Source of the DNA: a virus
Reading direction: 5' to 3' (one strand)
IMG/VR virus record: IMGVR_UViG_3300033145_001574
Coordinates: 1 to 37,264 of that record
DNA: 37,264 nt
The notes under the pieces are model-generated. The model had not been told where the DNA came from. It ran no database searches and worked only from the letters and a program-made list of their open reading frames with translations. A program made the translations under genes and the position numbers. Shown piece after piece: positions 7,683-21,618 of this stretch (positions are counted from its first letter, which is position 1; each line of letters opens with the position of its first letter).

Positions 7683-8332
7683 TACTCGGAATTATACCGG
7701 CTGGTGGAAAAGCGCGACGTTGGGATGGATATCCTAAAGAGTTATTACCGAGTGCTAATGGCGTTACTTTACTCGATCGTACTGTAGCAGCTATGAATCG
7801 CGGAAATGCTGATCACGTTATGCTAATTACTAATCAAGAAAAAGTACAAATGCACGTTTATCAATTAGGCGATAAAGTTAGTTATCATATTAAAAGTGAC
7901 GAAAACTTATGGGACTCAATTACAAAAAGCTTCATATATCGAGCAGATTGGTATTTGTTTGCAATGCCAGATACATATTATCCAAAAGATATTTTTACTA
8001 ATCCAAAAATGCGCGAAAGAAATTTTGGTTTAGGCGTATTTGATACGTACACTCCTGATAGATTCGGTGTGCTAATAAATGGCAAAATACGGGATAAAGA
8101 ATATTTGTCAGGCGCATTACCGTTTGAAGCTTGGGGTACATTGAATTGGTCTTCCGCAGTTGTAAATTATTGGATATCTCATCTTGACGAAATTAATTCG
8201 TTTACAGACGCTCTTAATCTCGCAATAAAGAAATTTAGTTATCATACGTGTCGAATGGATTATTATTTTGATATGGCAGATTGGCGAAAGTATGCTGATT
8301 TTGTGAGGGAAGTGACAGAATGGGAATACTAG
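7679..8332 (+). CDS. Sugar-1-phosphate nucleotidyltransferase-like protein
   Basis: A 217-residue protein beginning MILGIIPAGGKARR, with WDGYPKELLP after it. This is the NTP-binding signature of nucleotidyl transferases that make nucleotide sugars; the usual G-G-x-G-x-R appears here as AGGKARR. MPDTYYP (about residues 99-105) may supply the metal-binding Asp. It likely supplies the activated sugar used by the two preceding glycosyltransferases. Coupled to both neighbours: ATGA at its start and a 13-base overlap with the methyltransferase gene. A sugar-modifying GT-A role instead is possible. Confidence 0.78.
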   Translation: MILGIIPAGGKARRWDGYPKELLPSANGVTLLDRTVAAMNRGNADHVMLITNQEKVQMHVYQLGDKVSYHIKSDENLWDSITKSFIYRADWYLFAMPDTYYPKDIFTNPKMRERNFGLGVFDTYTPDRFGVLINGKIRDKEYLSGALPFEAWGTLNWSSAVVNYWISHLDEINSFTDALNLAIKKFSYHTCRMDYYFDMADWRKYADFVREVTEWEY

Positions 8333-19476: not shown

Positions 19477-19716
19477 CTAGAGCTTTTGTTTATCAGAAAC
19501 AGTAGCAAACGATACAAAATTTACCCATTGTTCGCAAACTTTTACTACATACTGATAATTACTCGAAATAGCTTCTAGAAAAAACTTATCTCGTTCTAAC
19601 AAAGGAACACTATGAGCTTTGAGAGCATCTCGAACTAAACCAATGGCTTCAAGCGCAGTTCCATTCTTAACCTCTTTATGAAAAACAACGGTGATATCTG
19701 GATATTTCGGTGTCAT
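19477..19716 (-). CDS. Small early protein, unknown function
   Basis: A 79-residue product read from ATG 19716, with AAGGAG upstream. The frame extends further upstream inside the next gene, but that part is a shadow without its own ribosome site. The sequence TPKYPDITVVFHKEVKNGTA and ALEAIGLVRDALKAHSVP suggests a small alpha/beta protein. No family recognised. It is the last gene of the minus-strand block; the 150 bases beyond it contain no clear minus-strand terminator. Confidence 0.7.
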   Translation of the reverse strand: MTPKYPDITVVFHKEVKNGTALEAIGLVRDALKAHSVPLLERDKFFLEAISSNYQYVVKVCEQWVNFVSFATVSDKQKL

Positions 19717-19717
19717 A

Positions 19718-19954
19718 CTATTGCTCCTTTTTATGTAATTGCATTTCTTGATCATGTCCATTATCGCAAATGCTATCGTCTGCTGGAACATGTGCTCCGC
19801 AAAGATAACAAGGATAACATAAAGGAAGTCCCATTTGCGCAAATTCTGGATCGTTGCATATATAACATTTTTCGTTATATACAGTAGGTTTACTAGTAAT
19901 TCCATCTGACAACATCCAATAAGCTGGATCTGATGGTTTCATTGCAGGACACAT
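19718..19954 (-). CDS. Small zinc-ribbon-like early protein
   Basis: A 78-residue product with Cys pairs CYIC, CYPC-YLC and a CDNGH near the C-terminus (YNEKCYICNDPEF, LCYPCYLCGAH, DSICDNGHDQ), consistent with one or two structural zinc sites. GAGGAG stands before ATG 19954. Its end abuts the next gene. Small zinc-ribbon proteins in early phage regions often bind nucleic acid or host proteins; none is recognisable here. Confidence 0.75.
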   Translation of the reverse strand: MCPAMKPSDPAYWMLSDGITSKPTVYNEKCYICNDPEFAQMGLPLCYPCYLCGAHVPADDSICDNGHDQEMQLHKKEQ

Positions 19955-19955
19955 T

Positions 19956-20207
19956 TTATTTCTCCTCTTTTAATTCGGATATTTCTTCAATTTGATCAAC
20001 CAGATTAATGTAATGGAGTGCTATTGCGTTGAAAGCTGTAGTTGGCCATTCTTCTAAAGAACTAATTTGATCATAATCTTGAGTAGGTGAAATATTATCT
20101 CTTATCATAATATAAGCAAGATCAATTATGGCAAGAGTGCGACCATGTTTAACTAACAATTTCTTAGCTTCGGTTATATAATGTTCATAAATTATGGGCA
20201 TTAACAT
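19956..20207 (-). CDS. Small early protein, unknown function
   Basis: An 83-residue mostly helical protein. ATG 20207 is chosen because AAGGAG lies seven bases upstream; an in-frame ATG at 20234 lies inside the ribozyme-like element and would include that ribosome site in the coding part. The sequence has ITEAKKLLVKHGRTLAIIDL and an acidic Glu-rich C-terminus (EISELKEEK). No family recognised. It is separated from the upstream gene by the degenerate hammerhead-like element. Confidence 0.7.
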   Translation of the reverse strand: MLMPIIYEHYITEAKKLLVKHGRTLAIIDLAYIMIRDNISPTQDYDQISSLEEWPTTAFNAIALHYINLVDQIEEISELKEEK

Positions 20208-20226: not shown

Positions 20227-20284
20227 TAACTCATTAGGACAGTTCTCTGTCGATCTCTTCTTCCTCCAAAAAGAGATTTCGTTA
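20227..20284 (-). ncRNA. Degenerate type II hammerhead-like element (core G5 to A)
   Basis: Read on the minus strand: TAAC (20284-20281), GAAA (20280-20277), a 6-bp stem III (TCTCTT with AAGAGA, loop TTTGGAGGAAG), TC cleavage position (20253-20252), a 5-bp stem I (GACAG/CTGTC, loop AGAA), then CTAATGA (20237-20231) and GTTA (20230-20227), which closes stem II with TAAC. All helices and core bases match a type II hammerhead except that CTGATGA reads CTAATGA. G5 is essential in known hammerheads, so it is probably weak or inactive. Its stem III loop contains a GGAGG. Confidence 0.6.
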
Positions 20285-20296
20285 ATCAAAATTCTG

Positions 20297-20962
20297 TTAT
20301 TTGATTATTGTTAAACCTTTTGCTGCTTGTAGAATTACAACTGCTTCTTCTTCTGTCGCGTAAATTGTAGGAAGTTTTATACGCACCATTCCTGCTTCAT
20401 TGCTCTTGCTTGATACTATTCCACTCCATTTGCTCAAACCGAATTCTTTATTTATTTTGTCGACGATTATTGTGTTAACTTCTTTTATCTGCAGGTTTTT
20501 CTTTTTCGATTTTTCTTTTAGAACATAAAGATCGTGAAGTGAAAGCACTTCTGCCGCAATTTTTTCGTAACTATAAGTGCCATCTTTTTTCAGCGGGAAT
20601 CTTTTTCCATCGTAGCTACCAATTCGAAGATAAGGTTTTCCAGTACGATGATACGAATGAGAATTTGTTGTTTGCCATGTAATCGATAAATACCATGGAT
20701 TAGATTGAGCAACTCTAATACGCGGTCTATTTTGTTCTCGTACATAACACGCGTTTTTGAATCCCACTTTTTTCAGTTCATCTACGATTTTTTGAGCGTG
20801 AACTTCTTTTTCTTTATAGTCTTTATCGTACTCGAGTTGGCGTTTCTTAACGGCTTCAAGTTGTTCAGCTTTTTGAAGTTCTTTGCGCGCAATACGTTCA
20901 GCGTCTACTAATTCTTGTTTTGCCTTTGCTGCCTTTGCTTTTAGCTCTTCTATTTTATTCAT
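20297..20962 (-). CDS. Coiled-coil early protein, unknown function
   Basis: A 221-residue protein. Residues 1-60 form a highly charged coiled coil (KAKAAKAKQELVDAERIARK, ELQKAEQLEAVKKRQ). The C-terminal 160 residues have mixed alpha/beta pattern (KNACYVREQNRPRIRVA, KPYLRIGSYDGKRFPL, then EKIAAEVLSL). AAGGAG precedes ATG 20962. No family is recognised. It sits between two ribozyme-type elements: a complete hammerhead in its 5' leader and the degenerate one after its stop. Confidence 0.8.
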   Translation of the reverse strand: MNKIEELKAKAAKAKQELVDAERIARKELQKAEQLEAVKKRQLEYDKDYKEKEVHAQKIVDELKKVGFKNACYVREQNRPRIRVAQSNPWYLSITWQTTNSHSYHRTGKPYLRIGSYDGKRFPLKKDGTYSYEKIAAEVLSLHDLYVLKEKSKKKNLQIKEVNTIIVDKINKEFGLSKWSGIVSSKSNEAGMVRIKLPTIYATEEEAVVILQAAKGLTIIK

Positions 20963-20989
20963 TTCAATTCTCCTTTATTGATTATTGAT

Positions 20990-21041
20990 TAGCTCATCAG
21001 TATCGGTTTTTCCGATAGACCCTCTTTCGAGGGTTTCGCTA
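20990..21041 (-). ncRNA. Type II hammerhead ribozyme (copy 1)
   Basis: Minus strand, 5' to 3': stem II strand TAGC (21041-21038); core GAAA (21037-21034); stem III CCCTC-GAAA-GAGGG (21033-21020); TC (21019-21018) with predicted cleavage after C21018; stem I TATCGG-AAAAA-CCGATA (21017-21001); core CTGATGA (21000-20994); stem II strand GCTA (20993-20990). Every invariant hammerhead core base is present. The open helix is stem II, so it is a type II ribozyme. The stop codon TAG of the upstream gene (21041-21039) is part of stem II. Cleavage would give the downstream mRNA a 5' hydroxyl and a 5' stem-loop. Confidence 0.88.
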
Positions 21042-21254
21042 TTTCCAGTTCTTGATTTCGACTATACCAGGAAAATCTTCTTTGAAATTGCCAGCCATCC
21101 AACACGATACAGCGTTTAGAGTTAGTTTTATGTCAGCAGCAAATAATCTTGCGTCTGGTTTGAACATATTATGTGCTGGTTGTCGATTTTCTTGAGTAGT
21201 AACCGGGAGAATCGTACCATCTTTGAACATTACGAACCATTGCGCTGTTTTCAT
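21039..21254 (-). CDS. Small early protein between two hammerhead ribozymes
   Basis: A 71-residue protein (KTAQWFVMFKDGTILPVTTQ then ARLFAADIKLTLNAVSCWMAG), alpha/beta in appearance, no family recognised. ATG 21254 follows AAAGGAGTTTCAA, the same leader sequence as the next upstream small gene, which suggests duplication of a leader-ribozyme module. Its stop codon TAG forms part of stem II of the ribozyme that follows. Confidence 0.78.
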   Translation of the reverse strand: MKTAQWFVMFKDGTILPVTTQENRQPAHNMFKPDARLFAADIKLTLNAVSCWMAGNFKEDFPGIVEIKNWK

Positions 21255-21280
21255 TTGAAACTCCTTTATTAATTAGTAAT

Positions 21281-21332
21281 TAGCTCATCAGTACTGGTTT
21301 TTCCAGTAGACCCTCTTTCGAGGGTTTCGCTA
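21281..21332 (-). ncRNA. Type II hammerhead ribozyme (copy 2)
   Basis: Minus strand, 5' to 3': TAGC (21332-21329); GAAA (21328-21325); stem III CCCTC-GAAA-GAGGG (21324-21311); TC (21310-21309) with predicted cleavage after C21309; stem I TACTGG-AAAAA-CCAGTA (21308-21292); CTGATGA (21291-21285); GCTA (21284-21281). It is identical to copy 1 except for two base pairs of stem I, which change from T-A, C-G to C-G, T-A with pairing kept. It lies between the genes ending at 21330 and starting at 21254, and it again includes the upstream stop codon in stem II. Confidence 0.88.
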
Positions 21333-21506
21333 TTTATTAATTAGACGGTCATAATCTCGTTCGCATTCAAGCGTAATACTAAGAATTTGAGGTAAAAGAC
21401 GAGAATATTTATTTGGCTGCGGAGACTCTTCACTCATACGCATTAAAAAACTTTGAAAATCCTGTGTAGTATAATAATCATTTTTCACAACTTTAACTGT
21501 TTTCAT
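21330..21506 (-). CDS. Small 58-residue early protein
   Basis: Read from ATG 21506 to TAG 21332-21330. The leader AAAGGAGTTTCAA is shared with the gene starting at 21254. The product begins MKTVKVVKNDYYTTQDFQSF and ends LECERDYDRLINK; the N-terminal MKT and leader identity suggest leader duplication rather than homologous proteins. No family is recognised. Upstream of the ribosome site, TTGAGC and GCTCAA (21518-21523, 21539-21544) can form a hairpin whose end abuts AGGAG. Confidence 0.72.
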   Translation of the reverse strand: MKTVKVVKNDYYTTQDFQSFLMRMSEESPQPNKYSRLLPQILSITLECERDYDRLINK

Positions 21507-21548
21507 TTGAAACTCCTTTGAGCCTTGATTAATTAGTTGCTCAAGACA

Positions 21549-21580
21549 ATCATATCATATAACAGCGTAGTGAATGTTAA
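21549..21580 (-). promoter_or_regulatory. Possible early promoter with tandem operator-like repeat
   Basis: On the minus strand TTAACA (21580-21575) is a -35 candidate. The -10 is ambiguous: TGATAT (21557-21552) at 17 bases, or TATGAT at 15 or 20 bases. The direct repeat TTAACGTTT (plus strand 21577-21585 and 21588-21596) overlaps the -35 with an 11-bp period, about one helical turn. It would drive the small-gene/ribozyme cluster separately from the main early operon. Confidence 0.35.
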
Positions 21581-21618
21581 CGTTTTATTAACGTTTACTA
21601 AGTCTTTGCCATCCTGCG

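Follow-up and report, generated by a model that had tools for sequence, protein, structure and literature searches.

Natural type II hammerhead ribozymes were described in 2011 as clustering around the genes of phages and prophages, and processing into gene-length mRNAs was proposed as a possible role for such clusters (Perreault et al. 2011, PMC3088659). Clustered phage hammerheads self-cleaved both in vitro and in E. coli, rare variants of the hammerhead core were found, and for one phage hammerhead (HHphage) the mapped 5' end of a transcript is no more than three nucleotides away from the cut site (PMC3088659). A 2017 review still treated the role of hammerheads in prokaryotes and phages as an open question (PMC6155905).

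We analyzed a window of 37,264 bases (the whole stretch of DNA considered here), which is a single virus record carrying tailed-phage genes (terminase, major and minor head proteins, tape measure, and lysin). The window represents a previously unseen phage and a further case of the known type II hammerhead clusters; the novelty implied by an earlier note on this DNA, which described two tandem hammerheads, was overstated, clustered phage type II hammerheads having been reported in 2011 (PMC3088659).

Results

Gene context of the cluster

The leftward block of the window carries genes for a primase, a DNA polymerase, a thymidylate synthase, a MazG-like protein, and a methyltransferase, and small ORFs of 58, 71, 221, and about 83 amino acids (aa) form its downstream end. 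Its gene content (primase, DNA polymerase, and so on) suggests an early operon; promoter-like sites near the operon occur at chance level (9 found versus 9.0 expected). The 71-aa ORF is bracketed by two type II hammerheads (elements 1 and 2), and a third, hammerhead-like element lies 3' of the 221-aa ORF, an arrangement that makes this a clustered phage hammerhead array. The features are as follows:

21330 to 21506, minus strand: 58-aa ORF, upstream of hammerhead 1; without PHROG or Pfam match
21281 to 21332, minus strand: type II hammerhead 1, between the 58-aa and 71-aa ORFs (core, covariance model, and fold)
21261 to 21335, minus strand: second copy of a 75-nt direct repeat, 91% identical to the copy at 20970, containing hammerhead 1 and the ribosome-binding site 3' of it
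21039 to 21254, minus strand: 71-aa ORF, flanked by hammerheads 1 and 2; without PHROG or Pfam match
20990 to 21041, minus strand: type II hammerhead 2, between the 71-aa and 221-aa ORFs (core, covariance model, and fold)
20970 to 21044, minus strand: reference copy of the 75-nt direct repeat, containing hammerhead 2 and the ribosome-binding site 3' of it
20297 to 20962, minus strand: 221-aa ORF, flanked by hammerhead 2 and the third element; without PHROG or Pfam match
20227 to 20284, minus strand: third hammerhead-like element, separating the 221-aa ORF from the next one (descriptor match)
19956 to 20207, minus strand: 83-aa ORF, 3' of the third element; without PHROG or Pfam match

The 83-aa ORF starts at the ATG at 20207, behind AAGGAG, and the mechanical ORF list places its start at 20234, inside the third element. 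No relative of the 221-aa ORF was found among the 48 viral records searched.

Two further stretches of the minus strand deserve mention. The 112-nt gap upstream of the 58-aa ORF (21507-21618) is hammerhead-free and may hold a promoter, and the leader of this ORF repeats that of the 71-aa ORF (a 23-nt identical repeat, 21497-21519 and 21245-21267). At 19477-19954, a cysteine-rich 78-aa ORF (19954-19718) overlaps a 142-aa ORF (19905-19477) in a different frame; the PHROG match of the latter (phrog_1933) is limited to its C-terminal part, and its true start may lie later than the mechanical ORF call.

Two complete type II hammerheads

Elements 1 and 2 are 52 bases long each, and the positions given for them in the earlier note (21332-21281 and 21041-20990, minus strand) proved exact. 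The RNA of element 1 reads UAGC-GAAA-CCCUC(GAAA)GAGGG-UC-UACUGG(AAAAA)CCAGUA-CUGAUGA-GCUA, in which stem II is UAGC/GCUA, stem III is A-CCCUC(GAAA)GAGGG-U with C17 at the cut, and stem I is UACUGG(AAAAA)CCAGUA; element 2 has the same sequence apart from stem I, which is UAUCGG(AAAAA)CCGAUA. In both elements stem II has 4 bp, stem III has 5 bp plus an A-U pair, and stem I has 6 bp, with loops closing stems I and III and stem II left open (type II connectivity). All fixed core positions are matched (CUGANGA, GAAA, the A15.1-U16.1 pair, and H17 at the cut), so that the claim of a full set of core bases in type II order holds position by position. Cleavage is predicted after the C at 21309 in element 1 and after the C at 21018 in element 2, the two sites that had been named. 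Each element lies between neighbouring ORFs, in agreement with the gene-junction placement that the note had described, and in each the UAG stop of the preceding ORF contributes to stem II, an uncommon feature (2 of 91 database elements, among the matches listed).

The two copies differ at 4 of 52 positions (27, 28, 38, and 39), and these four differences make up two stem I pairs in which both sides have changed (one is C-G in element 1 and T-A in element 2, the other T-A in element 1 and C-G in element 2). Two compensated pairs with none broken arose in 9.75e-5 of trials placing four random substitutions, a chance of about 1e-4 for the change on both strands that had been pointed out before. 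When folded alone, both elements take on the secondary structure of a hammerhead (z = -3.9 and -4.0). The strict consensus descriptor was matched in none of 300 dinucleotide shuffles of the window, and a loose descriptor in one.

The Rfam model RF02276 (Hammerhead_II) gives full-length matches of 33.2 and 34.3 bits to elements 1 and 2 (E-values of 5.9e-5 and 3.1e-5 in a 551-base search), both below its gathering cut-off of 37 bits. A default Rfam scan of the whole window at the gathering cut-off accordingly returns no match, and taken alone would have wrongly dismissed the two hammerheads. The same cut-off also excludes other type II elements of phages whose core is complete. It is a threshold set by a curator and describes no structural feature, and we take the low score to reflect a shortcoming of the threshold and not of the elements. 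Because the RF02276 scores fall below the cut-off, we built a phage-specific covariance model on 50 diverse phage elements, with the window's own left out; with all filters off, this model gives 59.4 bits for element 1 and 59.3 bits for element 2 (E about 6e-14). The covariance-model check that had been proposed for the two elements is thus borne out by matches to both models, and falls short as regards the Rfam cut-off itself.

Small hammerheads can arise randomly in very large databases (PMC3088659), and a chance match to a short motif is an explanation to which we assign negligible probability here: with no strict match in 300 shuffles, copies in successive junctions, and the E-value under the phage model, the shuffle controls and the model together rule out chance for elements 1 and 2. 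Architecture, core, covariance score, covariation, and junction placement all fit, supporting the conclusion that elements 1 and 2 are complete type II hammerheads.

A third element with an altered core

Both tandem elements are real, and the count of two was incomplete: a third, core-mutated copy occupies the next junction (20284-20227). Its RNA reads UAAC-GAAA-UCUCUUUUU(GGAGG)AAGAAGAGA-UC-GACAG(AGAA)CUGUC-CUAAUGA-GUUA, with stem II UAAC/GUUA, a 9-bp stem III bearing a GGAGG loop, and stem I GACAG(AGAA)CUGUC. Stems, GAAA, and UC are intact, and the position equivalent to the cut lies after 20252; the core motif is CUAAUGA, in which G5 has become A (base 20235). Tested for a complete catalytic core the element fails, and we class it as a degenerate or variant relative and not as a member. 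In hammerhead mutagenesis, changes of G5 abolish or nearly abolish cleavage, and the third element is probably inactive (or very slow) because this base is A. The simplest reading is that it is probably a related, decayed copy that lost activity through G5A.

The descriptor score of the third element was equalled by none of 300 shuffles, and the phage model places this element as the top match in the window behind the two intact elements (14.8 bits, E 0.054). Rfam gives no hammerhead match at this element; its matches there to nuoG (23.5 bits) and freshwater-2 (22.8 bits) are far under their cut-offs and were set aside as chance. No further one-mismatch elements with a score of at least 7 were found in 2.28 Mb of loci.

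Predicted processing of the leftward mRNA

We think it likely that elements 1 and 2 are catalytically competent and would split the mRNA into single-gene units with protected ends. The leftward polycistronic phage mRNA would be cut in cis by elements 1 and 2 between adjacent small accessory genes, giving an upstream product whose 3' end is the stem III hairpin with a 2',3'-cyclic phosphate, and a downstream product that begins with the stem I hairpin and a 5'-hydroxyl, immediately before its ribosome-binding site. Type II hammerheads, unlike types I and III, leave a closed hairpin on both new ends after the cut; for the window products these hairpins come to about -9.5 kcal/mol (stem III) and -5.4 to -5.9 kcal/mol (stem I). 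The outcome would be single-gene mRNAs with structured, decay-resistant ends, like RNase III processing in some other phages, and cutting at both sites would free the 71-aa ORF on a 291-nt RNA. Structure, conservation, covariation, and placement are computed here, and cleavage in the cell, protection of the ends, and benefit to the phage are what we infer.

A pseudoknot between loop I and the 3' tail speeds cleavage in many type II hammerheads (PMC3088659). In elements 1 and 2 pairing between loop I (AAAAA) and the tail is limited to 0-2 bp, and these elements may be slow at physiological magnesium because the pseudoknot is absent. Loop I-tail pairing of at least 4 bp occurs in 31% of 91 phage elements (among the matches listed) versus 15% with shuffled tails, and the pseudoknot is no defining feature of the type II hammerhead. 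Among consensus hammerheads tested in vitro, 4 of 18 were inactive (PMC3088659).

Cutting at both sites could also lead to a circle, in that the stem II ends of the excised 291-nt RNA (71-aa ORF) would rebuild a hammerhead and the RNA would be closed by the ribozyme or by an RNA ligase of the host, for example RtcB. Stem II is the same in both copies, so that the excised ends can refold as a hammerhead with the cut ends adjoining (-18.7 kcal/mol for the joined form), a geometry natural for type II; however, spliced or circular products of clustered hammerheads were sought by Perreault et al. and none was detected (PMC3088659), and we consider circularization highly improbable.

Type II hammerheads in viral contigs

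A strict pattern matched 13 sites on 12 viral contigs, with complementary stems in all 13, and the control pattern with G5 substituted (A, C, or T) matched 7 contigs, which share a single identical sequence without stems. With the stem III loop left free, the pattern gave at least 96 raw sites in viral contigs, 91 of 96 (among the matches listed) being structurally complete, with a full stem III and a stem I of at least 4 bp. All three helices covary in an alignment of 50 of these elements: 97.3% of cells are paired, versus 28.9-42.0% for slid versions, and double-change cells number 238 versus 78 in shuffles (0 of 500 shuffles as high), a count that leans to structure in that the sites were pre-filtered for it, yet 91 of 96 unfiltered sites passed (among the matches listed).

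Placement was scored on the 93 sites with enough flank (among the matches listed, the window's three included). Intergenic placement from stop to start is found at 88 of 93, versus 21% of random positions; an ORF stop lies within 60 nt upstream at 90 of 93 and a start within 60 nt downstream at 90 of 93, with median distances of 4 nt from the upstream stop and 26 nt to the downstream start. A Shine-Dalgarno-like motif precedes the downstream start at 73 of 93 sites (versus 19% of random positions), and 12 of the fetched database loci in this set carry at least two elements. Most genes downstream of other phage hammerheads have no known function, and a few give anti-restriction, HNH, or DNA-binding matches; given this diversity, we rejected a function that depends on a single type of gene.

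The stem III loop is no part of the catalytic core, and stem III lies outside the contact between stems I and II that supports fast catalysis. The stem III loop is GNRA in 46 of 91 elements and UNCG in 19 of 91, so that 65 of 91 (among the matches listed) are extra-stable, and about 5% would be expected of random tetraloops (GNRA 1/32, UNCG 1/64). This bias suggests selection for hairpin stability beyond catalysis, and folding efficiency would account for it as well; the stem III tetraloops could have been selected for folding instead of end protection.

Stem III is, in the window, a stable GNRA hairpin, and a terminator-like site lies on the plus strand at 21308-21327, both of which would suit non-cutting structural hairpins that stabilize the mRNA or act as a weak terminator for the other strand. 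Such a role leaves the conservation of GAAA, UC, and CUGANGA unexplained, however, and the two terminator-like sites in the scanned region are about what chance provides (1.8 expected). The tested pattern, moreover, turned up no G5-substituted versions of the structure in viral contigs, and we judge a purely structural role very unlikely.

Cultured Streptomyces phages and relatives of the window

Type II hammerheads number 11 in the cultured Streptomyces phage Janus (locus L248, NC_054660.1 40500-50632), 9 in Andris (L249), and 10 in phiScoe1 (L250), and none of them is annotated; we found no earlier report of unannotated arrays in cultured phages, in an incomplete coverage of the literature. 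The Janus array sits in the right-arm leftward operon, with 11 of 11 elements at gene junctions (overlapping annotated CDSs by at most 2 nt), and only one intergenic gap of at least 45 nt between 1404 and 8667 of L248 is hammerhead-free (7908-7954). A further virus record, G046 (IMGVR_UViG_2767802072_000001; L127, C1:3000-13500), whose DNA resembles Streptomyces phages, has ten type II hammerheads within 8.7 kb of one operon. That Streptomyces phages hold about ten elements within a single operon supports self-processing of the mRNA. Aminoglycosides bind a hammerhead ribozyme and, separately, block phage infection at an early step (PMC9239200); phage hammerheads as an aminoglycoside target in Streptomyces phages are a thought only.

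A DNA search of phage records, near and distant, with the window or its elements gave no useful match, and probing viral contigs with the DNA polymerase found no relative; probing with the capsid gene gave 80 loci. Among the capsid-gene relatives searched, three carry a type II hammerhead (G011, G012, and G027). The closest syntenic relatives (G001 and G002, with a homologous DNA polymerase) lack both hammerheads and any homologue of the 221-aa ORF; hammerheads are therefore not required by the lineage, and the hammerhead-gene unit, being missing from both relatives, looks like an accessory cassette.

The same absence from syntenic relatives, together with the duplication of the 75-nt unit, the altered G5 of the third copy, and the heterogeneity of the downstream genes, would fit elements that are active and selfish, passengers that spread by duplication with small accessory genes and bring the phage no benefit. 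We consider this unlikely: the elements sit precisely between a stop and a start (88 of 93, among the matches listed), covariation is seen in the stems, loop III is specifically stable, no self-mobilizing machinery was seen beside the window elements, and nearly all gapped junctions of an operon in the Streptomyces phages hold a hammerhead.

Discussion

Intercistronic self-processing, the reading that we prefer for elements 1 and 2, may extend well beyond the window. We raise tentatively, and with some doubt, the idea that in many tailed phages type II hammerheads would form a systematic intercistronic punctuation at almost every gapped junction in operons of the accessory or replication side, type II having been chosen for the protective hairpins that it leaves on both ends. 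If this were true, then ribozymes would replace RNase III-like processing and set the mRNA lifetime of each gene independently.

The window adds one case to those known, a pair diverged by compensatory change accompanied by a core-mutated third copy. Specialists are likely to take most interest in the tetraloop bias and in the arrays that stand unannotated in cultured phages. The role of phage hammerheads is now testable, given at least 91 complete elements that are placed alike and mostly have an ultra-stable loop on stem III, and given about ten unannotated copies in each of the cultured Streptomyces phages.

Comparison with known systems

In T7 early mRNA, RNase III sites split the polycistronic message into gene-sized mRNAs with hairpin ends; there a host protein makes the cut, whereas a self-cutting RNA is predicted for the window. 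Elements 1 and 2 share with RF02276 the core, the open stem II, the cut position, and the placement at junctions in phages and prophages, and they differ from it in score (33-34 bits against a cut-off of 37), in their shorter loops, in having no loop I-tail pseudoknot, and in the upstream UAG stop inside stem II. Like the clustered phage and prophage hammerheads (PMC3088659), among them the triple array around ardA in Agrobacterium, several elements here flank single genes in a phage operon. In contrast to those clusters, the window belongs to another phage with other genes, its intact copies differ by compensatory changes, and its third copy carries G5A; cleavage was demonstrated there and is predicted for elements 1 and 2. 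The placement also recalls the HHphage of haloviruses HF1 and HF2, which directly precedes the start codon of an early phage gene (PMC3088659); HHphage has an insertion in its core (and the related HHmeta needs high salt), whereas elements 1 and 2 have the consensus core.
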